Of a stretch of 64,000 nucleotides of DNA, positions 8,831-29,444 are shown in pieces. The number at the start of each line of letters is the position of its first letter. Positions within the stretch are counted from its first letter, which is position 1. Location of the stretch: assembly GCA_016926235.1 (NCBI GenBank), contig JAFGOZ010000064.1, positions 7,415 through 71,414 of the forward strand, given 5' to 3'. The position numbers and the translations under genes were made by a program. This DNA is from Bacteroidales bacterium (GTDB lineage Bacteria; Bacteroidota; Bacteroidia; Bacteroidales; UBA10428). The notes under the pieces were generated by a model. It was not told the DNA's origin, made no database searches, and saw nothing but the letters and a program-made list of their open reading frames with translations.

Positions 8831-8903
8831 TCGGGGTAGGGCGACTCGAACGCCCGACCTCTACGTCCCGAACGTAGCGCGCTACCAACTGCGCTATACC
8901 CCG
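8831..8903 (-). tRNA. tRNA-Pro (anticodon CGG)
   Basis: 73 nt that fold as a cloverleaf: acceptor CGGGGTA / TACCCCG with discriminator A at 8831, D arm GCGC-AGTTGGTA-GCGC, anticodon arm CTACG-TTCGGGA-CGTAG (anticodon CGG), variable AGGTC, T arm GGGCG-TTCGAGT-CGCCC. CCA is not encoded. Reads codon CCG. Three partial copies follow on the 5' side. Confidence 0.95.
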
Positions 8904-8920
8904 TAATTATAATTCAAATA

Positions 8921-9123
8921 ACCTCTGCGTCCCGAATCCCGATTGCATCGGGACTACCAACAACGCTACTCCGGTATAAGTATAATTGTTATTTCAATGA
9001 CCTCTGCGTCCCGAATCCCGATTGCATCGGGACTACCAACTGCGCTATACTGCGGTATAAGTATAATTGTTATTTCAATGACCTCTGTGTCGTGAATCCC
9101 GATTGCATCGGGACTACCAACTA
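8921..9123 (-). repeat. three tandem tRNA-Pro-derived repeat units
   Basis: Units begin at 8921 (79 bp), 9000 (81 bp) and 9081 (truncated at about 9123). Each contains ACCTCTGCGTCCCGAA and CTACCAACTGCGCTATA-like stretches identical or nearly identical to the variable/anticodon and D-arm parts of the adjacent tRNA-Pro, but the anticodon stem is replaced by a hairpin CCCGAT-TGC-ATCGGG, and the T arm is replaced by an AT-rich linker GTATAATTGTTATTTCAATG. They cannot make functional tRNA. The last unit overlaps the TAG stop codon of the heptose kinase gene. Confidence 0.85.
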
Positions 9124-17923: not shown

Positions 17924-18000
17924 ATAGTGGTCTCGTCATAATACTCTTTGCGTTCATTGCGATACTTTTCGGCCTTTTCGTGAAAAAGTATTGTTTCTAA
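17920..18000 (+). CDS. putative 26-residue membrane micro-protein overlapping the flavodiiron stop
   Basis: ATG at 17920 overlaps the flavodiiron stop in an ATGA junction. The product MNSGLVIILFAFIAILFGLF then VKKYCF has one clean hydrophobic helix (about residues 5-20) followed by two Lys and a C-terminal Cys, the layout of a single-pass small membrane protein with a positive cytoplasmic end. Its stop overlaps the tail of the convergent rlmD gene. Supported only by the coupling junction and amphipathic order; it could be chance. Confidence 0.4.
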   Translation: MNSGLVIILFAFIAILFGLFVKKYCF

Positions 18001-19409
18001 AACTTTTCTAATAAAACAACATTTTCCACATGATCCGTATGAGGAAACATATCCACCGGCTGGGCTTTAGCCATTTTGTATCTTTCAGAGAGTAAGGCAA
18101 TATCTCTTGCTTGTGTGGCGGGGTTACAACTTACGTATACAATTCTTTCCGCATCGCAGTATATAAGCGCATCGATCACATCCTTATGAACTCCGGCACG
18201 TGGGGGATCAAGTATGACGACATCCGGTTTGCCCTGTTCATTAATGAATTTTTCACTCAAAATATCTTTCATGTCACCGGCAAAGAAAGAAGTATTGGTA
18301 ATACCATTTAATTCAGAATTTGTTTTTGCATCTTCAATTGCCTCAGGAACATACTCGATACCAATGACTTTTTTAGCATAACGGGCAATAAAATTTGCAA
18401 TAGTCCCGGTTCCGGTGTACAGGTCATATACTATTTCAGTCCCTGTTAATCCGGCATAATTCCGGGTAATTTCATATAAATTTAAACCTTGTTCCGTATT
18501 GGTCTGAAAAAAGGATTTAGGCCCGATTTTGTAACGCAAACCGTCCAATTCTTCAAAAATATGATCCCTGCCCGAAAACAGGATGATATCCTGGTCATCA
18601 ATAGTGTCATTGGCCTTTTGGTTTACAACATACATAAGCGATGTTATTTCCGGAAACTGTTTTTTCAGAAAAGACATCACACCTTCAATTTCCTGTTCGT
18701 CATTCCTGAAAAAACATACAATAAGCATTAACTCACCGATAGATGACGTGCGGATGATGAGGTTACGCAACAATCCCTGCTTTTCCCTAATGTCATAAAA
18801 TGACAACTCATGGTCAATAGCCCATTGCTTAAGGGCCAGACGGATAGTATTTGACGGATCTTTTTGAAGGTAACACTTTTCAATGTCCAGAACCTTGTCA
18901 AACATGCGTGGAATGTGAAACCCCAGGGCATTTCGATCATCAAAATCATGCCCGCTTTGTATTTCCTGTTGTGTAAGCCAACGTTTATTTGAAAAAGTGA
19001 ATTCAAGTTTATTCCTATAATACGTTGTATTAGAAGAAGGTACAATATCTAAAATGTTTTCAGCCGGAGCTTTGCCAATTCTTGTCAGGTTTGCAGCTAC
19101 GCGATTTTGTTTGAACTTAAGCTGAGCTTCGTATTTCATATATTGCCATTTGCATCCGCCACAAACCCCAAAATGACTGCAAAATGGCTCCTGACGTAAT
19201 TCTGAGTATGAGTGCCATGCAACCACCTGCCCTTCGTAATATTTCTTTCTTTTTTTTCGAACTTGTATGTCAACAATATCACCTGGTACCGCATTATTTA
19301 CAAAAACAACCGGACCTTCTTCTGATTTTGCAACCGCTTTACCTTCGTCTGCGATGTCTGTAATCAGAACTTTCTCAATAAGTTTGGTATTCTTTTTCTT
19401 GTTACTCAT
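17997..19409 (-). CDS. rlmD: 23S rRNA (uracil-1939-C5) methyltransferase RlmD-type (TrmA/RumA family)
   Basis: 470 residues. An N-terminal TRAM/OB domain (about 10-70) precedes the [4Fe-4S] motif CSHFGVCGGCKWQ (with an earlier or later fourth Cys near KCYLQ). The SAM domain has SFFQTNTEQ, YDLYTGTGTIANFIA, VVILDPPRAG and the catalytic Cys in IVYVSCNPAT. Family members make m5U in 23S rRNA or tRNA; the Fe-S motif favours RlmD/RlmCD. A -7 box ends 9 bases before the ATG, implying an almost leaderless mRNA. Confidence 0.9.
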   Translation of the reverse strand: MSNKKKNTKLIEKVLITDIADEGKAVAKSEEGPVVFVNNAVPGDIVDIQVRKKRKKYYEGQVVAWHSYSELRQEPFCSHFGVCGGCKWQYMKYEAQLKFKQNRVAANLTRIGKAPAENILDIVPSSNTTYYRNKLEFTFSNKRWLTQQEIQSGHDFDDRNALGFHIPRMFDKVLDIEKCYLQKDPSNTIRLALKQWAIDHELSFYDIREKQGLLRNLIIRTSSIGELMLIVCFFRNDEQEIEGVMSFLKKQFPEITSLMYVVNQKANDTIDDQDIILFSGRDHIFEELDGLRYKIGPKSFFQTNTEQGLNLYEITRNYAGLTGTEIVYDLYTGTGTIANFIARYAKKVIGIEYVPEAIEDAKTNSELNGITNTSFFAGDMKDILSEKFINEQGKPDVVILDPPRAGVHKDVIDALIYCDAERIVYVSCNPATQARDIALLSERYKMAKAQPVDMFPHTDHVENVVLLEKF

Positions 19410-21828: not shown

Positions 21829-22155
21829 ATGAAGAAAAAGGATACTATAAAAACAGGACTGTGCGCATTGCTTAGATTAGGTCTTATATTGGTAGTACCC
21901 GTTGAGATATTCATTTTTGTTTATTTTAAATATATAGTCCGGCCTGTTGGATTTATGGGTGAAGCTTTTTTAGGACTGGCCTGGTTTTTGACAGCTATAT
22001 TTTCTTTTTTTATTTGTTTGTGGCTGGCATCCATTATAAATATTTTTTACTTTTTGAAGTCGAAATATTCTATTAGGCCAAATATTGTTATGTTTTTCAT
22101 AGCTATTACAGCTTTTATCCTTTTTTATCTTTACATAAACAGGTTTAGATTATAA
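21829..22155 (+). CDS. small three-helix membrane protein
   Basis: 108 residues with three hydrophobic segments (about 10-32, 46-72 and 83-105) and a basic N-terminus MKKKDTIKTG. Lies just upstream of the arsR promoter but outside the ArsR operators. No family recognised. Confidence 0.55.
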   Translation: MKKKDTIKTGLCALLRLGLILVVPVEIFIFVYFKYIVRPVGFMGEAFLGLAWFLTAIFSFFICLWLASIINIFYFLKSKYSIRPNIVMFFIAITAFILFYLYINRFRL

Positions 22156-22169
22156 TCCTCATAAAAATG

Positions 22170-22187
22170 TGACGTTTTTTTACGTCA
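22170..22187. promoter_or_regulatory. ArsR operator 1
   Basis: TGACGT-N6-ACGTCA, perfect arms, upstream of the arsR -7 box. Same sequence recurs 29 bp downstream (22199-22216). Confidence 0.7.
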
Positions 22188-22198
22188 TATGAAAAATA

Positions 22199-22216
22199 TG
22201 ACGTATATTTGCGTCA
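22199..22216. promoter_or_regulatory. ArsR operator 2, overlapping the promoter
   Basis: TGACGT-ATATTT-GCGTCA, one mismatch from operator 1; flanks ATA/TAT extend the symmetry. The -7 box 22204-22211 lies inside it, so a bound repressor would block RNA polymerase. The arsR ATG is 16 bases downstream. Confidence 0.75.
22204..22211 (+). promoter_or_regulatory. -7 promoter box of the ars operon
   Basis: TATATTTG, exact TAnnTTTG match, embedded in operator 2 and 20 bases before the arsR ATG at 22232. Confidence 0.65.
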
Positions 22217-22231
22217 TATTTTTAATCCATC

Positions 22232-22564
22232 ATGTCAAAAATTGAACTCTTTGAAAAGGAACTACAGGATACTGCCTTGCTTTTCAAAGCATTGGCTCAT
22301 CCCGCAAGGCTGGCTATTTTAAAATACCTGGCCGAAGCCAAGGTGTGTATTTCAGGGGATATATCCAATGAGTTGCCTCTTAGCAGAACTACTGTAAACC
22401 AGCATTTAAAGGAATTGAAAGAAATTGGATTAATACAGGGGGAGATTGAAGGAGTGAAGGTGAATTATTGCCTGAATCAAACCAGTGTAAAAAATTTGGT
22501 AAAAGTACTAAGTGGTTTTTTTGAAAACTTTGACTGTTGTAAAAAAACGGATTGTTGTAAATAA
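22232..22564 (+). CDS. arsR: ArsR-family arsenic-responsive repressor
   Basis: 110 residues. Winged helix with KALAHPARLAILKYLAEAKV, then VCISGDISNELPLSRTTVNQHLKELKE as recognition helix region and GEIEGVKVNYCLN as wing. Arsenite-binding Cys are likely VC (about residue 38) and the unusual C-terminal tail FDCCKKTDCCK with two Cys pairs; the classic ELCVCDL motif is absent. It is first in an eleven-gene operon, preceded by two TGACGT-N6-ACGTCA operators, so autorepression is expected. Confidence 0.9.
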   Translation: MSKIELFEKELQDTALLFKALAHPARLAILKYLAEAKVCISGDISNELPLSRTTVNQHLKELKEIGLIQGEIEGVKVNYCLNQTSVKNLVKVLSGFFENFDCCKKTDCCK

Positions 22565-22574
22565 ATAAAGAGTC

Positions 22575-22991
22575 ATGCGAATATTAATATTATGTACAGG
22601 CAATAGTTGTAGAAGTCAAATGGCTCATGGCTTTTTACAGTCTTTTGATCCAAATCTGGAAGTATGCTCTGCAGGAACTGACATTGCCGAAAGAGTTAAT
22701 CCCAAAGCTATTGAGGTAATGAAAGAGGTTGGTATAGACATAAGTCACCATACCCCAAAACCTGTTGAGATATATGAAAAGGAGGAGTGGGACTATGTTA
22801 TAACCGTATGCAAAGGGGCAAAGGTAACCTGCCCAACCTTCAGTGGTAAAGTTAAAACCAGGTTGCATATTGGTTTTGAGGATCCTTCAGATGCTGTTGG
22901 CCCGGAGGAATTCATTATGAATGAGTTCCGCAGGGTCAGGGATGAGATCAGGGAGGGCTTTTATAAGTTTTATACAGATAACATCATTTAG
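22575..22991 (+). CDS. arsC: arsenate reductase, low-molecular-weight phosphatase type
   Basis: 138 residues. Reduces arsenate to arsenite with thioredoxin. The P-loop CTGNSCRS (Cys8-X5-Arg) and the redox Cys pair VCKGAKVTC (about 82 and 89-90) are the three catalytic Cys of the Bacillus/S. aureus-type enzyme, and FEDPSDAVG carries the general-acid Asp. Starts 10 bases after arsR. Confidence 0.93.
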   Translation: MRILILCTGNSCRSQMAHGFLQSFDPNLEVCSAGTDIAERVNPKAIEVMKEVGIDISHHTPKPVEIYEKEEWDYVITVCKGAKVTCPTFSGKVKTRLHIGFEDPSDAVGPEEFIMNEFRRVRDEIREGFYKFYTDNII

Positions 22992-22994
22992 CAT

Positions 22995-23363
22995 ATGAAA
23001 GGATTCTATACGATTGGTTTACTGGTGTTATCAAACACCTTTATGACTTTTGCCTGGTACGGCCACCTTAAGTTTAAGGAAATGAAATGGTTCAGTGCCT
23101 TACCACTGGTTTTAATAGTCTTAATAAGCTGGGGCATTGCTCTTTTTGAATACTTTTTCCAGGTGCCGGCCAACAGGATTGGGTTCAAAGAGTATGGTGG
23201 TCCGTTTTCACTTGTGGAACTAAAGGTAATTCAGGAAGTCATCACTTTGATCGTATTCACTCTCTTTACACTGCTGGTATTCAGAACAGAAACCTTTAAA
23301 ATAAATCATCTGATTGGTTTTGTTTTCCTGGTACTGGCTGTATATTTTATTTTTAAAAAATAG
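22995..23363 (+). CDS. DMT-superfamily DUF486 membrane protein
   Basis: 122 residues, four hydrophobic helices. KGFYTIGLLVLSNTFMTFAWYGHLKF, LISWGIALFEYFFQVPANRIG and FSLVELKVIQEVITLIVFTLF match the DUF486 family of small membrane proteins of the drug/metabolite transporter clan. Starts 3 bases after arsC, so it belongs to the ars transcript. DUF486 genes occur in many genomic contexts; an arsenic role is suggested only by position. Confidence 0.8.
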   Translation: MKGFYTIGLLVLSNTFMTFAWYGHLKFKEMKWFSALPLVLIVLISWGIALFEYFFQVPANRIGFKEYGGPFSLVELKVIQEVITLIVFTLFTLLVFRTETFKINHLIGFVFLVLAVYFIFKK

Positions 23364-23438
23364 TTGAATATCATTATGAAGAGCTGACTTTAGCAAGCCA
23401 GATATTATGAACAAAATAAATAGTAACAGATAATATTG

Positions 23439-23458
23439 CCGCTGGCTTTAACCAGCGG
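23439..23458. repeat. intra-operon hairpin 1
   Basis: CCGCTGG-CTTTAA-CCAGCGG, 7-bp GC-rich stem, in the 150-base gap between the DUF486 gene and arsM. No T-tract follows, so it looks like a processing/attenuation structure rather than a terminator. Confidence 0.7.
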
Positions 23459-23480
23459 ATAATAAAACATAAAAAAATAA

Positions 23481-23494
23481 GGGGCTTTAGCCCC
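23481..23494. repeat. intra-operon hairpin 2
   Basis: GGGGC-TTTA-GCCCC, a 5-bp GC stem 22 bases after hairpin 1 and 20 bases before the arsM ATG. Type of small GC stem with TTTA loop that also occurs as dispersed repeats in other genomes. Confidence 0.65.
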
Positions 23495-23513
23495 ATAAAG
23501 CAATAAAAAAATT

Positions 23514-24311
23514 ATGAAAACTTCAGATGAGCTAAAAAATATAGTAAAAGAAACCTATGCTGAAATTGCTACTCAAAAACCATCTTGTGGTTGTGGGTGC
23601 AGTTGCTCCGGGGATACTCAGGATTTTTCAGTATTTGTAGAGAATTACACTAATTTACCCGGATATGTAAGAGAAGCTGATTTAGGCCTGGGGTGTGGAT
23701 TGCCAACGGAATATGCCGGTATAAAGGCTGGAGATGCTGTTCTGGACCTCGGTTCGGGGGCCGGAAATGATTGTTTTGTCGCAAGTGCAATTGTTGGAGA
23801 CACCGGGCATGTTACAGGCCTCGATTTTACTGAGGAGATGGTTCAAAAGGCCAATCTAAACAAAAGATGGAGGGGCACAAACAATATCGATTTTGTGCTT
23901 GGAGATATTGAATCTATGCCCTTTGAAGATAATAGTTTCGATGTAATAATCAGTAATTGTGTTCTAAACCTGGTACCAGACAAAACCGTTGCATTTTCAG
24001 AAATGTACCGTGTATTAAAGTCTGGTGGCCATTTTTGTATTTCTGACATCATATTGAAAGGTGAATTACCTGAAGCTATCCTTGAAGCTGCAAACATGTA
24101 TGCAAGCTGTGTGTCCGGAGCATTGAAGAAAGAGGAGTATCTGACGATAATTGAAGAAGCAGGATTTTCTCATGTTGAAGTAAAAAAAATTGTGCGCAGT
24201 GACCTGCCCGATGAAGTTTTGTTGCAATACCTATCAAAAGATATTGTTGAAGCTTATCGAAAATCCGGTGCAGGTATTTTCAGCATTACCGTGGTGGGAC
24301 ATAAAATCTAG
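23514..24311 (+). CDS. arsM: arsenite S-adenosylmethionine methyltransferase
   Basis: 265 residues. Converts As(III) to methylated species using SAM. N-terminal Cys-rich CGCGCSCSG (about 24-32), SAM site VLDLGSGAGNDCFVA, and the As-binding Cys in IISNCVLNLVPDK and YASCVSGALKKEEY match ArsM. The following GNAT and ACR3 genes start 3 and 463 bases later in the same operon. Alternative: a generic methyltransferase, but the three Cys positions argue for ArsM. Confidence 0.92.
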   Translation: MKTSDELKNIVKETYAEIATQKPSCGCGCSCSGDTQDFSVFVENYTNLPGYVREADLGLGCGLPTEYAGIKAGDAVLDLGSGAGNDCFVASAIVGDTGHVTGLDFTEEMVQKANLNKRWRGTNNIDFVLGDIESMPFEDNSFDVIISNCVLNLVPDKTVAFSEMYRVLKSGGHFCISDIILKGELPEAILEAANMYASCVSGALKKEEYLTIIEEAGFSHVEVKKIVRSDLPDEVLLQYLSKDIVEAYRKSGAGIFSITVVGHKI

Positions 24312-24314
24312 AAT

Positions 24315-24755
24315 ATGAAAAACGCTATCATCTCAGAAGCTTTTGAAACAGATATGGCAAATATTATCACCTTGTTAAACGGGGCTAATTTGCCAACAGC
24401 GGATGTTTTGCCCGGTAATCAAAAATTTTGGGTAATGAGGCAATCTGGTACTATAACAGGTTGTGTTGCACTTGAAGAATATGGCGAATATGGTTTATTT
24501 CGTTCGTTTGCCATTAGGGAAGATTTGAGAAATAAGGGATTGGGAACGATGCTTTACAAAAAATCAATAGAGCATATAAAGTTATCCGGAATAAAGGTTT
24601 TGTACCTTCTAACTACTAAAGCTGATAAATATTTCGGCAGGACCGGATGGGAGACTATTTCCCGGGCTGATGTGCCTGAGCTCATAAAATCCTCTGGCGA
24701 ATTTTCATCTATTTGTCCGCAAAGTGCGGTGTGTATGCGATTAAAGATCGATTAA
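24315..24755 (+). CDS. arsN2: GNAT acetyltransferase, ArsN2 type
   Basis: 146 residues. Acetyl-CoA fold with FRSFAIREDLRNKGLGTMLYKKS (motif A), and VLYLLTTKADKYFGRTGWETISRADVPELI and CPQSAVCMRLKI at the C-terminus, the pattern of the ArsN2 family found in ars operons. The related ArsN1 N-acetylates arsinothricin; the substrate of ArsN2 is not established. Between arsM and acr3 with 3- and 16-base gaps. Confidence 0.8.
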   Translation: MKNAIISEAFETDMANIITLLNGANLPTADVLPGNQKFWVMRQSGTITGCVALEEYGEYGLFRSFAIREDLRNKGLGTMLYKKSIEHIKLSGIKVLYLLTTKADKYFGRTGWETISRADVPELIKSSGEFSSICPQSAVCMRLKID

Positions 24756-24771
24756 AAGAACTTATTAAGAA

Positions 24772-25821
24772 ATGGAAACATCCGCTATACGAAAATTAGC
24801 TTTTTTAGATCGCTACCTGACTCTATGGATATTTCTTGCCATGTTCATCGGGGTTATTTCCGGGTATTTGTTTAAAGGTATATCCGCTTTTTGGGAGTTG
24901 TTAAGTTCGGGTACTACAAACATACCAATTGCCATTGGCCTCATTATTATGATGTACCCGCCTCTAGCCAAAGTCAAGTATGACGAACTTAAGGATGTAT
25001 TTAAAAACTTCAGGATATTGGGTCTTTCGCTTGTGCAAAACTGGATAATTGGGCCGGTACTTATGTTTGGATTAGCATTGCTGTTTTTACAGGATTACCC
25101 GCATTATATGGCAGGCCTCATCCTGATTGGTCTGGCGCGTTGTATTGCCATGGTCATTGTTTGGAACGAACTGGCCAAAGGAGATAATGAATATGCTGCC
25201 GGACTTGTGGCATTTAATTCCATTTTCCAGGTGCTTTTCTTTTCCGCTTATGCCTATTTTTTCCTTACGGTAATACCCAAATGGCTGGGTATTCAATCTT
25301 TTAAAGTTGATATCACCATGTTACAGATTGCAAAAAGTGTGTTCATTTACCTGGGAATACCTTTTATAGCTGGTTTTTTTACTCGTTTCATCCTTATCCG
25401 GGTTAAAGATAAGGAATGGTATCAACAACGGTTTATACCAAAAATAAGTCCGTTAACACTTATTGCACTTCTTTTTACAATCATCGTAATGTTTTCACTC
25501 AAAGGGGAATATATTGTAAAAATTCCATTGGACGTGGTTCGTATTGCCATACCATTGGTAATATATTTTATCGTAATGTTCCTGCTCTCGTTTATTATGG
25601 GAAAGCGCATTGGAGCCGATTATCCCAAAACGGCTACTATTTCATTTACTGCTGCCAGTAATAATTTTGAATTGGCTATAGCATTGGCTGTGGCAGTGTT
25701 TGGTATTAACTCAGGTGAGGCATTTGCGGCTGTCATTGGACCATTGGTTGAGGTACCTGTACTTATATCGCTTGTAAATGTGGCATTATATTTTAAGAGG
25801 AGATTTTTTAATAACAATTAA
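24772..25821 (+). CDS. acr3: ACR3-family arsenite efflux permease
   Basis: 349 residues with ten hydrophobic helices. [41 protein letters not shown] (the conserved Cys and Glu of ACR3), [20 protein letters not shown] and [19 protein letters not shown] are diagnostic of ACR3/ArsB-type carriers, which expel As(OH)3 by proton exchange. Sits in mid operon. Confidence 0.95.
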
Positions 25822-25832
25822 TTTATTGTATT

Positions 25833-26078
25833 ATGGACATAAAAGTTTTAGGAACAGGCTGTAGCCGTTGCAATAGCCTTGAAAAAGTAACCAAACAAGC
25901 TGTAGAAGAACTGGGAATACCTGCTTCTATAGAAAAAATTGAAGATATACAACAGATAATGAGCTATGGTATTTTAAGAACCCCCGGCTTAATCATTGAC
26001 GGGAAAGTAGTAATAACAGGTCAGGTACCTGGTATTGCTGAGATGAAAGAAATGATTAAAAAACACGATTCAAATTAA
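25833..26078 (+). CDS. small thioredoxin-fold protein (possible ArsE counterpart)
   Basis: 81 residues. MDIKVLGTGCSRCNSLEKV has a CxxC (CSRC) on a glutaredoxin-like fold, with cis-Pro RTPGLIIDGKVVITGQVPG, the MTH895/redox-active disulfide protein 2 family. 11 bases after acr3 and 18 before arsF. In known arsEFG clusters a small thiol protein accompanies ArsF and ArsG; calling this one ArsE is inference. Confidence 0.75.
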   Translation: MDIKVLGTGCSRCNSLEKVTKQAVEELGIPASIEKIEDIQQIMSYGILRTPGLIIDGKVVITGQVPGIAEMKEMIKKHDSN

Positions 26079-26096
26079 ACTTAATAAATCACAACC

Positions 26097-26504
26097 ATGA
26101 AAAACATTAACATTTTACTCGTTTCAATATTGCTTGTAACAACAGCATTAACATGTCGTTCCCAATCTAACCAGAATGATGCAACTTCTTCAACTGAGGA
26201 TAAAGTGAAGATGTATTACTTCCATTTTTCCCGTCGTTGTGCAACCTGTGTTGCAGTTGAGGAGGAATCGCAAAAGGCTGTTAATGAATTGTATGGTGAT
26301 AATATATCATTTGCATCATTGAACCTGGAAGAGGAGGATGGTAAAAAAATAGGTGATAAATTAGGAGTTTCCGGCCAGACTTTACTTATTGTTTCGGGAG
26401 ATAAAAAGATAGACATCACCAATGAAGGATTTATGAATGCACGCAGTAATCCGGATAAACTAAAGCAGATTATTAAAGAGAAGATAGATCCTTTGGTAAA
26501 ATAA
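26097..26504 (+). CDS. arsF: ArsF-family exported thioredoxin-like protein
   Basis: 135 residues, with an N-terminal signal/lipoprotein-like segment (LLVTTALTC). KMYYFHFSRRCATCVAVEEES holds the CxxC (CATC) of a periplasmic thioredoxin fold, NEGFMNARSNPDKLKQIIKEKI is the C-terminal helix. Matches the family annotated as nitrophenyl-compound nitroreductase subunit ArsF, partner of the ArsG permease for trivalent aromatic arsenicals. Precise biochemistry not established. Confidence 0.75.
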   Translation: MKNINILLVSILLVTTALTCRSQSNQNDATSSTEDKVKMYYFHFSRRCATCVAVEEESQKAVNELYGDNISFASLNLEEEDGKKIGDKLGVSGQTLLIVSGDKKIDITNEGFMNARSNPDKLKQIIKEKIDPLVK

Positions 26505-26510
26505 AGAAAT

Positions 26511-26960
26511 ATGGAAATATTACATATTTGTCCACAGTGTGGAATACCTGCTATTCATGTTGGTGAAAAGGTTGTATTGTTTTATATAAAAACTGCTGAT
26601 TCACTTCCCACAGGAAAGAAATGGAGTGCTTGTCCGAATTCAGAATGTGAAATAGCTTATTTTACAAAAGGATATGACATTTATCAAAAAGACTTAACAG
26701 TAAAGTTATTTTATAAAAGAGGTGATATCGATGTGCCAATTTGTTATTGTTCAAATCTTAAACGTGGAGAAATTCACGAAGCAGTAAAAGCTGGTTGCTT
26801 AAGCATTGATCAGGTGCAGGAGTATACAGGGAAGGATATTACCGGCTATTGCGAGGAGAAAAATCCATTGGGAAAATGTTGCAGAAATGCATTTCTTTTT
26901 GAAATACGAAAGGCTGTTAGCCAAATAAATAATGATTTATCAAACACTTTGAGCAAATAA
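26511..26960 (+). CDS. CopZ-type 2Fe-2S/zinc-binding protein
   Basis: 149 residues without a signal peptide. N-terminal half: CPQCGIPAIHVG, and CPNSECEIAYF, a zinc ribbon. C-terminal half: YCSNLKRGEIHEAVKAGC and CEEKNPLGKCC, a BFD-like [2Fe-2S] motif. This is the zf_CopZ architecture seen in Archaeoglobus CopZ, but with no HMA metal-chaperone domain. It ends exactly at arsG's start (stop 26960, next ATG 26961), so it is translationally linked to it; it could deliver electrons or As(III) thiolate to ArsG. Role in arsenic handling is inference. Confidence 0.75.
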   Translation: MEILHICPQCGIPAIHVGEKVVLFYIKTADSLPTGKKWSACPNSECEIAYFTKGYDIYQKDLTVKLFYKRGDIDVPICYCSNLKRGEIHEAVKAGCLSIDQVQEYTGKDITGYCEEKNPLGKCCRNAFLFEIRKAVSQINNDLSNTLSK

Positions 26961-27662
26961 ATGGAAGAAATTTTAAACTACCTCTATACAAACACAAGTG
27001 TACCGATACTTTCAGCTTTATTACTTGGATTAATGACAGCTATTAGTCCCTGTCCCCTGGCTACAAATATTACAGCAATCGGATTTTTAAGTAAGGATAT
27101 TGAGAACCGGAACAGGGTTTTTATTAATGGTCTGGTGTATACCCTGGGGAGGGCTTTATCCTATACGGGACTGGCTGTGATCCTGTTTATTGGGGCCGAT
27201 CAGTCTAAAATATCGGGTTATTTTCAGCAATACGGAGAAAAAATTTTAGGACCATTATTAATTGTGATTGGTGTTTTCATGCTTGGAATAATAAAATTTA
27301 ACTTTCCGGGTTTCAACCGATTTTCGGAGAAGGTTGGTAATAAGACAAAGCATAGCTACAGGGATGTGCTGTTACTGGGAGTGGTATTTGCGCTTGCATT
27401 TTGTCCCTACAGCGGGGTGCTTTATTTTGGATGCCTTATCCCCCTGTCCATCAAGAGTGCTTCAGGATTATTTCTGCCTTTTGCCTTCGCCCTAGCCTCA
27501 GCCCTGCCGGTAATCATTATTTCATGGTTGCTGGCCTATTCTGTTTCCGGTGTTGGAAGGTTTTACAATAATCTTAAAATTTTTGAGAAATGGTTCAGGA
27601 GGATAGTTGCAGTGCTATTTATCGGAGTGGGAATTTATTTTACAGTAATTATTTGGTTTTAA
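26961..27662 (+). CDS. arsG: ArsG-type organoarsenical efflux permease (DsbD/CcdA-like)
   Basis: 233 residues, six hydrophobic helices. LMTAISPCPLATNITAIGFLS has the Pro-Cys-Pro loop and FCPYSGVLYFGCLIPLS the second Cys/Pro loop, the CcdA/DsbD-like fold used by ArsG. Same neighbour set as arsEFG. In Shewanella this permease exports trivalent aromatic arsenicals. Distinguished from heme/DsbD transporters by the ArsF and CopZ-like neighbours. Confidence 0.78.
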   Translation: MEEILNYLYTNTSVPILSALLLGLMTAISPCPLATNITAIGFLSKDIENRNRVFINGLVYTLGRALSYTGLAVILFIGADQSKISGYFQQYGEKILGPLLIVIGVFMLGIIKFNFPGFNRFSEKVGNKTKHSYRDVLLLGVVFALAFCPYSGVLYFGCLIPLSIKSASGLFLPFAFALASALPVIIISWLLAYSVSGVGRFYNNLKIFEKWFRRIVAVLFIGVGIYFTVIIWF

Positions 27663-27674
27663 GGATTTAAGATT

Positions 27675-28688
27675 ATGAAGAAGAGATTGGTTTTGACTGG
27701 GATTTTGTTAATAGTATGGGTTGTATTCTATTATTATTTACATCAGATTGCTGATTTTATAGTTTTTAGCTTACTTAGACTGGAAGAGGGAACACATCTG
27801 ACAGAATCTATCCGTTTCTTTATCTATGAGGTTCCTAAGGTCATGCTACTACTAATGCTCATCGTTTTCTTAGTTGGGATAATCAGGTCCTGGTTTTCCC
27901 CGGAGAAAACACGTAAAGCGCTTGAGGGCAAGTCTTTGTTTTTAGGTAATGTAATGGCTGCTTCTCTCGGTATAGTTACTCCCTTTTGTTCGTGTTCGGC
28001 TATTCCTTTGTTTCTTGGATTTGTAGAAGCCGGGATTCCTATTGGAGTTACTTTTTCATTTCTTATAGCAGCACCGATGATAAATGAAGTGGCATTGGTC
28101 CTTTTAGTTGGAATGTTTGGCTGGAAAGTTGCTGCATTTTATGTATTGACAGGACTGGTCATAGCCATAATATCAGGATTTATACTTGAAAAACTTAAGC
28201 TTCAAAAATATGTTGCAGACTGGGTGTTTAAGATGCAAGCTAACAAAATAGATATGGAAGTGCAGAGAATTACTTTTAATGACAGGTTAAATGCAGGATT
28301 CCGTGCCGTAAAGGAAATTGTTGGGAAAATATGGATATTTATACTTATCGGTATTGCCGTTGGTGCAGGGGCGCACGGCTATGTGCCGGACGAGTACCTC
28401 GCAAATGCACTTGGTGATAAAAACTGGTATTCAGTGCCACTGGCTATCATGGTGGGTATTCCATTATATTCTAATGCAGCAGGAATAGTCCCGGTAGTAA
28501 GTGTACTTATGGAAAAAGGAGTTTCGATGGGTACAGCCCTGGCATTTATGATGTCTGTCATTGGCCTTTCCCTTCCTGAGGTTATAATTCTAAAAAAAGT
28601 ATTGAAATGGCAATTGATTGCTGTTTTTATTGGTGTTGTGGCTGTGGGGATTATTATTGTGGGCTATGTTTTTAATTGGGTGATGTGA
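27675..28688 (+). CDS. arsP: ArsP-type permease (PF03773)
   Basis: 337 residues, eight hydrophobic helices. VTPFCSCSAIPLFLGFVEAG (with FCSCS, the As-binding Cys of ArsP), FSFLIAAPMINEVALVLLVGMFG, and GIPLYSNAAGIVPV and MMSVIGLSLPEVIILKKVLK fit ArsP, a trivalent methyl- and aromatic-arsenical exporter. Last gene of the ars operon, 12 bases after arsG; converges on the metallo-beta-lactamase gene 9 bases away. Confidence 0.85.
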   Translation: MKKRLVLTGILLIVWVVFYYYLHQIADFIVFSLLRLEEGTHLTESIRFFIYEVPKVMLLLMLIVFLVGIIRSWFSPEKTRKALEGKSLFLGNVMAASLGIVTPFCSCSAIPLFLGFVEAGIPIGVTFSFLIAAPMINEVALVLLVGMFGWKVAAFYVLTGLVIAIISGFILEKLKLQKYVADWVFKMQANKIDMEVQRITFNDRLNAGFRAVKEIVGKIWIFILIGIAVGAGAHGYVPDEYLANALGDKNWYSVPLAIMVGIPLYSNAAGIVPVVSVLMEKGVSMGTALAFMMSVIGLSLPEVIILKKVLKWQLIAVFIGVVAVGIIIVGYVFNWVM

Positions 28689-28697
28689 AATAGTATC

Positions 28698-29444
28698 TCA
28701 CTTTTTAGTCTTAGCGCACAATTCCATTGTATGCTCAACTAACTCCATTCCACCATGATTTCCATGTCCGGGAATTATAATTTTTGCTTCAGGAAATTTT
28801 GCTTTCACTTTTTGTAGTGTTTCAGGATATGCAGAAAGATCTCCGTCTGCTGTATTTCCAAGATTTCCAGCTCTAATTTCTTTAATCATACAACCGGCAA
28901 ACAGAATCTTTTCTGATGGAACCCAAACTACAATGTTATCCAAAGAATGAGCAGCACCCGGGTAATAGCAGAGAATATCAATAGTACCCAATTTTAAAGA
29001 AAGTGAATCATTAAATCCATGTTGAGGCACAGGCAGTCCTTTATCCTTTGCAAATTGAATGGTCATATTATTAGCATATGAAGGGATGCCGTAACCATGA
29101 ACAATATCCAGTCCTTCCATACAGTCACTATGCCAGTGATTGGGCACAAAACCAATAATTTTGTTTCCAAGACTATCCTGTATATAGTCAATCAGATCAA
29201 CTGTTAATGAATCGCTCATGGGTGTATCAAAGAGATAAGCTTCATTATTTTGAACTAATAGCATGCCATTTGAAGGGAATCTCTTGTATCGGGGTGATGT
29301 AGAATATGAAACATGGATATAAGCATTCTTTGAAAGCTGTATCAGTTCAATATCTTTAGAAATAAAGATGGTACTGGGTAATTCTTGGGAGAAAGAAAAA
29401 ATGGTTTGTACTAAAACAGCTAGTACGAATAAAATTGTTTTCAT
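28698..29444 (-). CDS. class B1 metallo-beta-lactamase, CfiA/CcrA-like
   Basis: 248 residues, secreted (MKTILFVLAVLVQTIFSFSQ). Zinc ligands are complete: H103-W-H105-S-D107-C108 (Zn1 H/H, Zn2 D), H166 in GAAHSLDN, C185 in LFAGCMIK, H227 in IPGHGNHGG. The segment SYANNMTIQFAKDKGLPVPQ and KVKAKFPEAKIIIPGHG are very close to recalled CcrA of Bacteroides fragilis, including the Cys after Asp in HxHxDC. It should hydrolyse carbapenems and other beta-lactams. Transcribed convergently with the ars operon; no IS element or promoter insertion upstream. Confidence 0.9.
   Translation of the reverse strand: MKTILFVLAVLVQTIFSFSQELPSTIFISKDIELIQLSKNAYIHVSYSTSPRYKRFPSNGMLLVQNNEAYLFDTPMSDSLTVDLIDYIQDSLGNKIIGFVPNHWHSDCMEGLDIVHGYGIPSYANNMTIQFAKDKGLPVPQHGFNDSLSLKLGTIDILCYYPGAAHSLDNIVVWVPSEKILFAGCMIKEIRAGNLGNTADGDLSAYPETLQKVKAKFPEAKIIIPGHGNHGGMELVEHTMELCAKTKK

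Follow-up and report, generated by a model that had tools for sequence, protein, structure and literature searches.

What is a protein resembling one half of CopZ doing between ArsF and ArsG in an arsenic operon? The question is raised by an eleven-gene cluster on contig JAFGOZ010000064.1 of a Bacteroidales bacterium, at positions 22232-28688 of the 64,000-nucleotide stretch that was analysed here and that we call the window. The explanation that we favor, if by no means firmly, is that this cluster is an arsenic-responsive operon with a complete arsEFG set, and that the CopZ-like protein is the version, in this lineage, of a recurrent BFD-type [2Fe-2S] accessory, one that most likely passes electrons or an arsenical to ArsE, ArsG or ArsP. 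The genes and the elements around them are as follows.

22170-22187 and 22199-22216, plus strand: two perfect tandem operator-like dyads, TGACG-N8-CGTCA, 5' of arsR
22232-22564, plus strand: arsR, ArsR/SmtB-type repressor with a CC...CC tail (NF033788, 66.1 bits; cut-off 55)
22575-22991, plus strand: arsC, arsenate reductase of the low-molecular-weight phosphatase type (Pfam LMWPc PF01451, 79.8 bits; cut-off 23.2)
22995-23363, plus strand: DUF486/DMT_6 small membrane protein (PF04342, 146 bits; cut-off 25)
23364-23513, plus strand: 150-base gap with two perfect hairpins, CCGCTGG-CTTTAA-CCAGCGG and GGGGC-TTTA-GCCCC (fold z -3.13)
23514-24311, plus strand: arsM, As(III) S-adenosylmethionine methyltransferase (NF008823, 312.2 bits; cut-off 263)
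24315-24755, plus strand: arsN2, GNAT acetyltransferase (NF040501, 137.8 bits; cut-off 125)
24772-25821, plus strand: acr3, arsenite efflux permease (TIGR00832, 454.8 bits; cut-off 282.8)
25833-26078, plus strand: arsE, thioredoxin-like, 81 amino acids, no export signal, CxxC at 10/13 (TIGR00412 "MTH895/ArsE family", 107.3 bits; cut-off 62)
26097-26504, plus strand: arsF, thioredoxin-like, signal-like N-terminus, CxxC at 48/51 (NF040494, 92.1 bits; cut-off 60)
26511-26960, plus strand: protein like the N-terminal part of CopZ, with a zinc domain, a probable BFD-type [2Fe-2S] domain and no HMA domain (zf_CopZ, cysteine alignment, 2hu9 matches)
26961-27662, plus strand: arsG, DsbD/CcdA-related membrane protein (NF040495, 306.5 bits, cut-off 200; DsbD_2 PF13386, 72.4 bits, cut-off 24.9)
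27675-28688, plus strand: arsP, ArsP_1 permease, CxC at 105/107 (PF03773, 256.6 bits; cut-off 32.3)

The first-pass annotation, made from the letters alone, had described eleven contiguous genes in this order and with this spacing, and the coordinates of the open reading frames (ORFs) bear it out: all lie on the plus strand, separated by gaps of 10, 3, 150, 3, 16, 11, 18, 6, 0 and 12 bases. Family scans likewise confirm that inorganic, methylated and organoarsenical branches are united in one cluster, with described families covering 10 of the 11 ORFs (ArsR, ArsC, DUF486, ArsM, ArsN2, Acr3, ArsE, ArsF, ArsG and ArsP), from which the functions of the genes are predicted. ArsC falls below the cut-offs of the NCBIfam ArsC models TIGR02691 (119.8 vs 174.3), NF010053 and TIGR02689. 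What had been called a CxxC mini-thioredoxin is indeed a thioredoxin-like ORF with a CxxC motif, but its identity as ArsE had been missed; the arsEFG set is therefore complete, with ArsE, ArsF and ArsG each above the curated cut-off, on the same strand and in E-F-G order, with one gene inserted.

The inserted gene encodes a relative of half of CopZ

The inserted 149-amino-acid protein passes the Pfam cut-off for zf_CopZ (32.9 vs 28.4) and falls just under that for Fer2_BFD (25.7 vs 26). Nine cysteines are invariant across 21 aligned rows, and all nine align with those of the N-terminal domain of Archaeoglobus CopZ (2hu9), which is matched by the profile of the CopZ-like protein at E 7e-12. The same chain is the best match in the Protein Data Bank (PDB) for the predicted structure (predicted local distance difference test score, pLDDT, 84; E 2.4e-6; template-modelling scores 0.61/0.68), followed by weak matches to bacterioferritin-associated ferredoxins, at E 0.035 and above. 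Pfam returns no HMA domain in the 149 residues, and the curated NCBIfam CopZ-N cut-offs are not reached (NF047645, 60.1 vs 100 bits; NF045877, 64.5 vs 190 bits). Taken together, the zf_CopZ domain, the invariant cysteines, the sequence and fold matches to 2hu9 and the missing HMA domain define a predicted cytosolic zinc/[2Fe-2S] protein that is related to half of CopZ and that we do not file as CopZ. With the Archaeoglobus fulgidus protein it shares the zinc domain, the nine aligned cysteines and probably the BFD-type [2Fe-2S] domain, whereas the C-terminal HMA copper domain is lacking and the setting is arsenic, not copper. Among [2Fe-2S] proteins of the CopZ family, selenoprotein forms are listed in PMC13188914, in the passages concerned without a tie to an arsenic operon.

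The stop codon of the CopZ-like gene abuts the ATG of arsG, as had been noted, and the gaps on its two sides are 6 and 0 bases. The abutment had been taken as a sign that the two proteins act together; this we reject, because close junctions are usual at this point of the operon, 62 of 111 ArsF-ArsG junctions measured in relatives lying within 5 bases.

A [2Fe-2S] accessory recurs in arsEFG-arsP operons

To place the protein among its relatives, we used two kinds of samples. Two peptide patterns of the CopZ-like family, narrow ones that missed the divergent domains linked to arsenic genes, were scanned over a genome collection of 84,980 species and gave 31 loci, with 1 more from a scan of viral contigs. 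The other sample was drawn from one Bacteroidota order by way of the genome of Gaoshiqia sediminis (locus L001, genome G001): 140 of the 142 listed ArsG places were taken with up to 7 kb per side and their genes labelled by profiles grown from the window proteins, a run being defined by a common strand and gaps below 300 bases, and regions at contig ends being kept in the counts.

The linkage of the CopZ-like gene to ArsG that the first-pass annotation had proposed does not hold in its exact form: the gene stands between arsF and arsG in none of the 140 ArsG regions, and ArsG is absent from the fetched flanks of all 32 pattern loci, flanks of at most 9 kb (6 kb for the viral contig) that are often cut by contig ends. 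What does recur, elsewhere in arsEFG-arsP operons, is a related [2Fe-2S] domain. It is present in 5 of the 140 regions (L126, L137, L190, L213 and L216), either as a free protein encoded between arsG and arsP, or as a fusion with ArsC, or in one chain with HMA and zinc domains. A profile of the domain (A1) matched 5 of 247 genomes of the order at E<=1e-12, in three of them (G344, G362 and G502) within 3 kb of ArsG, and, at E<=1e-8 in a larger, overlapping draw, at least 11 of 393 genomes, a lower bound because no more than 10 first-look candidates were scored in each genome. In 7 of these 11, the match lies inside an operon with arsE, arsF, arsG or arsP genes. Four of the seven (G362, G559, G554 and G580) encode a BFD protein of 74-76 amino acids between arsG and the gene for an ArsP-type permease, which in G580 is a 438-amino-acid protein like SaoE/SO_0444; in G528 the BFD gene lies between arsE and arsP; in G344 a gene for an HMA-zinc-BFD protein precedes arsP-arsE-arsF-arsG; and in G502 the BFD-type domain is fused to the C-terminus of ArsC. 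The remaining four are G001 and the near-identical G486, G574 and G640, where the match lies beside an RNA methyltransferase gene (flank about 1.5 kb or less). Fer2_BFD scores above the Pfam cut-off in 5 of the 6 ars-linked proteins tested, the ArsC fusion falling just short. Because 5 of the 140 ArsG regions and 7 of the 11 matching genomes carry it in such operons, the [2Fe-2S] accessory of arsEFG-arsP operons is recurrent, in four architectures. Our term searches of a literature library found no description of such a recurrent accessory in arsenic operons.

The free BFD-type proteins (L102/L190, L216, L126, L245, L246 and L248) resemble the window protein in placing a [2Fe-2S] BFD domain in an arsEFG-arsP operon. 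They differ from it in that they are about 75 amino acids long, have no zinc domain, follow arsG instead of preceding it and often end in a cysteine-rich tail.

Several features of these and other relatives deserve mention in their own right. The operon with the ArsC-BFD fusion (L101/L213, in G502) also holds small genes with a CC motif and of the GKGGVGKT type, which look like ArsD and ArsA. A zinc/[2Fe-2S] gene that is nearly identical in three genomes (L100, L243 and L244) lies beside an RNA methyltransferase gene. A methyltransferase of similar appearance is encoded in the window at 17997-19409, some 3 kb ahead of arsR, perhaps by coincidence. Clostridial relatives of the CopZ-like protein follow either an ArsR-type regulator and a 481-amino-acid ORF (L023, L024, L026 and L030) or a P-type ATPase, in the latter case facing an ArsM gene (L017, L018 and L021). 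Plasmid relatives, in 12 records, are at most 34.5% identical to the window protein, and metagenome proteins (P0002-P0009) are 51-69% identical.

Passenger, delivery protein or redox partner

One alternative makes the CopZ-like gene a mere passenger: its product would serve heavy metals in general (copper or mercury) as a zinc/[2Fe-2S] protein, and the gene would have ended up in the operon without any role specific to arsenic. We regard this as rather unlikely, although a number of observations, of context, history and structure, weigh against the accessory reading and several of them favor a passenger directly. The exact order arsF-CopZ-like-arsG has no parallel in the ArsG regions, and 135 of the 140 lack any such [2Fe-2S] domain. 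Four Bacteroidota relatives that are 45-51% identical to the window protein (L001-L004) have no ArsG in their fetched flanks; L003 lies amid apparent metal-efflux genes, RND/CDF-like by ORF reading, and L001 and L004 have no ars genes at all in the flanks fetched. The clostridial relatives are found beside P-type ATPases or beside the 481-amino-acid ORF, whose sequence in L023 and L026 suggests a flavin disulfide reductase. With chance put roughly at about 0.2% per match, the 7 of 11 seen is far beyond expectation, but the estimate ignores the kinship of genomes from the same order. The window protein may have arisen independently of the free BFD proteins, a question for which 62 alignment columns are too few, and labels shuffled on a tree of ArsG required a mean of 8.8 changes, with 78 of 500 shuffles as low as the value observed, so that no inherited association of the accessory with ArsG shows. 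Finally, the structure model of ArsG is poor (pLDDT 54), and the sole chains returned by a profile search of the PDB were those of CheW, at E 0.05 or higher, none of them convincing. What speaks against a passenger is the recurrence of related [2Fe-2S] domains in arsEFG-arsP operons, in several architectures that include one fusion to ArsC and at a frequency far above rough chance, along with the tight packing of the CopZ-like gene and the retention of its nine cysteines.

The trees behind these statements can be read as follows. On the tree of the BFD domain, built on those 62 columns and with many forks left open, a single branch (99/96) unites the seven ars-linked BFD proteins that are free, L247 included, and the window protein groups with the metagenome protein P0002 (97/87). 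Approximately unbiased tests rejected neither the grouping of all ten ars-linked sequences (p 0.33) nor that of the window protein with the seven (p 0.30). A quickly built tree of 144 ArsG rows contains nine BFD-bearing loci, the window among them; on it the presence of the accessory needs 8 changes, at least 6 of them forced by starred branches, a scatter close to that of shuffled labels. Judging from these trees, the accessory is not stably kept but has been gained, transferred or lost again and again.

A second alternative accepts an arsenic-related role and changes its nature: the CopZ-like protein would bind metal or arsenicals and act as a chaperone, bringing As(III) or organoarsenicals to the CxC permease ArsP (or to ArsG), and would not be an electron carrier. 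The free BFD gene stands directly before the gene for an ArsP-type permease in 7 of 7 loci (L102/L190, L126, L216, L245, L246, L247 and L248), cysteine-rich tails (CSCC, CCCC) end several free BFD proteins as well as L001-L003, L137 (tested as L099) joins the BFD domain to an HMA domain, and C105 and C107 of ArsP, the CxC motif, are 99% conserved in 113 rows. The window protein itself, however, has no cysteine-rich tail, and its gene precedes arsG, not arsP; delivery in place of electron transfer thus seems to us a doubtful proposition, slightly more so than a passenger.

The accessory reading translates into the following putative mechanism. Most likely, ArsR would repress one promoter through two tandem operators; ArsC would make As(III), which Acr3 would export and ArsM methylate; and ArsP may export trivalent methyl or aryl arsenicals. 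Cytosolic ArsE, exported ArsF and membrane-bound ArsG, all with strongly conserved cysteines, would make up the arsEFG set, and the CopZ-like protein would most likely work on the cytosolic side, where it would supply the machinery of ArsE, ArsG and ArsP with electrons or with an arsenical that it binds.

A possible thiol relay

The arsEFG system reduces nitroaromatic arsenicals and exports the amino products, with ArsG as the arsenical exporter in the published assignment. An arsEFG operon for roxarsone and nitarsone detoxification was reportedly described by Chen, Zhang and Rosen in 2019. The window departs from the published operon in the zinc/[2Fe-2S] protein inserted between ArsF and ArsG and in the presence of inorganic, methylation and ArsP genes in the same operon.

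The conserved features of the three proteins evoke another mode of action. Both CxxC cysteines are 99% conserved in ArsE (137 rows; ArsE matches 1ilo, MTH895) and in ArsF (161 rows), and a strongly hydrophobic N-terminus is found in 6 of 137 ArsE relatives and in 156 of 161 ArsF relatives. Cys31 and Cys148 of ArsG are kept in all 140 aligned relatives. ArsG, a relative of the DsbD/CcdA carriers, passes Pfam DsbD_2, has two conserved cysteines in hydrophobic stretches and is accompanied by cytosolic and exported thioredoxin-like neighbors, and DsbD-sized frames in the whole-phylum draw hit the ArsG model as well, though short of its cut-off. In an alignment with relatives, C31 falls on their PC motif, whereas C148 is offset and lies in CP where they have PC. 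A cytosolic thioredoxin, a DsbD-like membrane protein and an exported thioredoxin, as predicted here, have the layout of a thiol relay. We suggest, tentatively and with more doubt than belief, that ArsEFG, instead of simply pumping arsenicals out, works as a DsbD-like thiol relay of cytosolic ArsE, membrane ArsG and exported ArsF and reduces arsenicals at the periplasmic face of the inner membrane, with BFD-type [2Fe-2S] proteins as its dedicated, repeatedly recruited redox partners. The PDB search returned no match below E 0.06 for ArsF and none up to E 0.01 for ArsP, and the NCBIfam matches of ArsP, SaoE and SO_0444, are both below cut-off.

An operon ordinary for its clade

Apart from the inserted gene, the operon is real and largely ordinary for its clade. 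ArsG scores above cut-off in 132 of the 247 genomes of the sampled order and in 6 of 296 genomes of a draw from the whole phylum, G001 included; the system is therefore much denser in this order. In the 140 ArsG regions, the same run includes ArsR in 114, ArsE in 126, ArsF in 132 and ArsP in 112; ArsF stands directly before ArsG in 126 and ArsP directly after it in 83. All four of ArsE, ArsF, ArsG and ArsP lie in a single run in 105 regions, joined by ArsC and Acr3 in 32 and by ArsM as well in 16. The module arsR-arsE-arsF-arsG-arsP is common to the window and to other Bacteroidota operons (L119, L130 and L237, for example), and locus L119 has 8 of the 11 window genes in the same order (ArsR ArsC ArsM Acr3 ArsE ArsF ArsG ArsP), ArsN2, DUF486 and the CopZ-like gene not being detected there. 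A single-sequence search for ArsN2 gave no match below E 0.07 across the 140 regions. Relatives of ArsG at 68-70% identity carry source names of Bacteroidales and similar groups, suggesting a Bacteroidota host, and the operon is probably chromosomal.

The premise that arsEFG and arsP are normally separate is contradicted in the sampled order by those 105 regions, and this ordinary clade operon corrects the idea of two newly joined systems. A novel joining of two organoarsenical export systems, with DUF486 as a further part, agrees with the contiguity of the window genes but is highly improbable, since arsEFG-arsP contiguity is the rule in this order and DUF486, although common (124 of 247 genomes; 127 matches by per-genome counts), occurs in 1 of the 140 ArsG regions (L148). 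Nor do the other counts support DUF486 as a partner in arsenic efflux, as the first-pass annotation had it: of 30 DUF486 loci inspected, a single one (L249, near ArsR/ArsC) has ars genes within about 1.5 kb, and, with coordinate lists compared by eye, DUF486 and ArsG are less than 10 kb apart in one match, G521, which is L148.

Other extra ORFs are seen in these operons. Small ones resembling carboxymuconolactone decarboxylases, rhodanese-like proteins or putative zinc-binding proteins are present in many arsEFG-arsP operons (L114, L115, L107, L118, L128, L160, L197, L123, L148 and L199), and an ORF of 115-119 amino acids that resembles the 23S rRNA intervening-sequence proteins lies between ars genes in L129, L191, L223, L111 and L123.

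Regulation and surroundings

A single arsenic-controlled transcript for the operon is plausible because two dyads and a TAnnTTTG element, which we take to be the -7 promoter motif of Bacteroidota, sit just before arsR, and ArsR may well bind the tandem dyads. These are the sole matches to TGACG-N8-CGTCA in the 64 kb at up to 1 mismatch, and at least two such matches were also found in 6 of 100 shuffles. The TAnnTTTG element starts at 22204, inside the second dyad; in 22100-28700 it is seen three times (shuffled mean 5.9), the other two inside acr3. When an upstream TT[TG] at 18-23 bases was added, 3 starts resulted (22178, 22179 and 25640) vs a shuffled mean of 2.7, so that the arsR promoter is not above chance by this test alone. 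A sigma-70-type scan for internal promoters found 25 vs a shuffled mean of 30.1, no excess, which does not establish their absence. The terminator scan gave 14 sites vs 6.0 expected, with both strands pooled and many sites within genes; the GGGGC hairpin between DUF486 and arsM has a T run on the minus strand only. From that gap, the only long one, the segment GGGCTTTAGCCC is found again once, with one mismatch, at 18062, and is perhaps a dispersed repeat.

Directly 3' of arsP, and convergent with it, lies a gene for a subclass B1 metallo-beta-lactamase (28698-29444, minus strand; NF033088, 259 bits vs 200). Farther away in the window, at 8888-9122, a 75-base unit is repeated three times in tandem, its first copy starting inside a tRNA-Pro gene (8831-8903).

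Implications

The point of interest in this locus is a small [2Fe-2S] protein that recurs in arsenic operons beside thioredoxin-like and DsbD-like partners. Such an accessory gives a testable handle on the mechanism of arsEFG and on its electron source.

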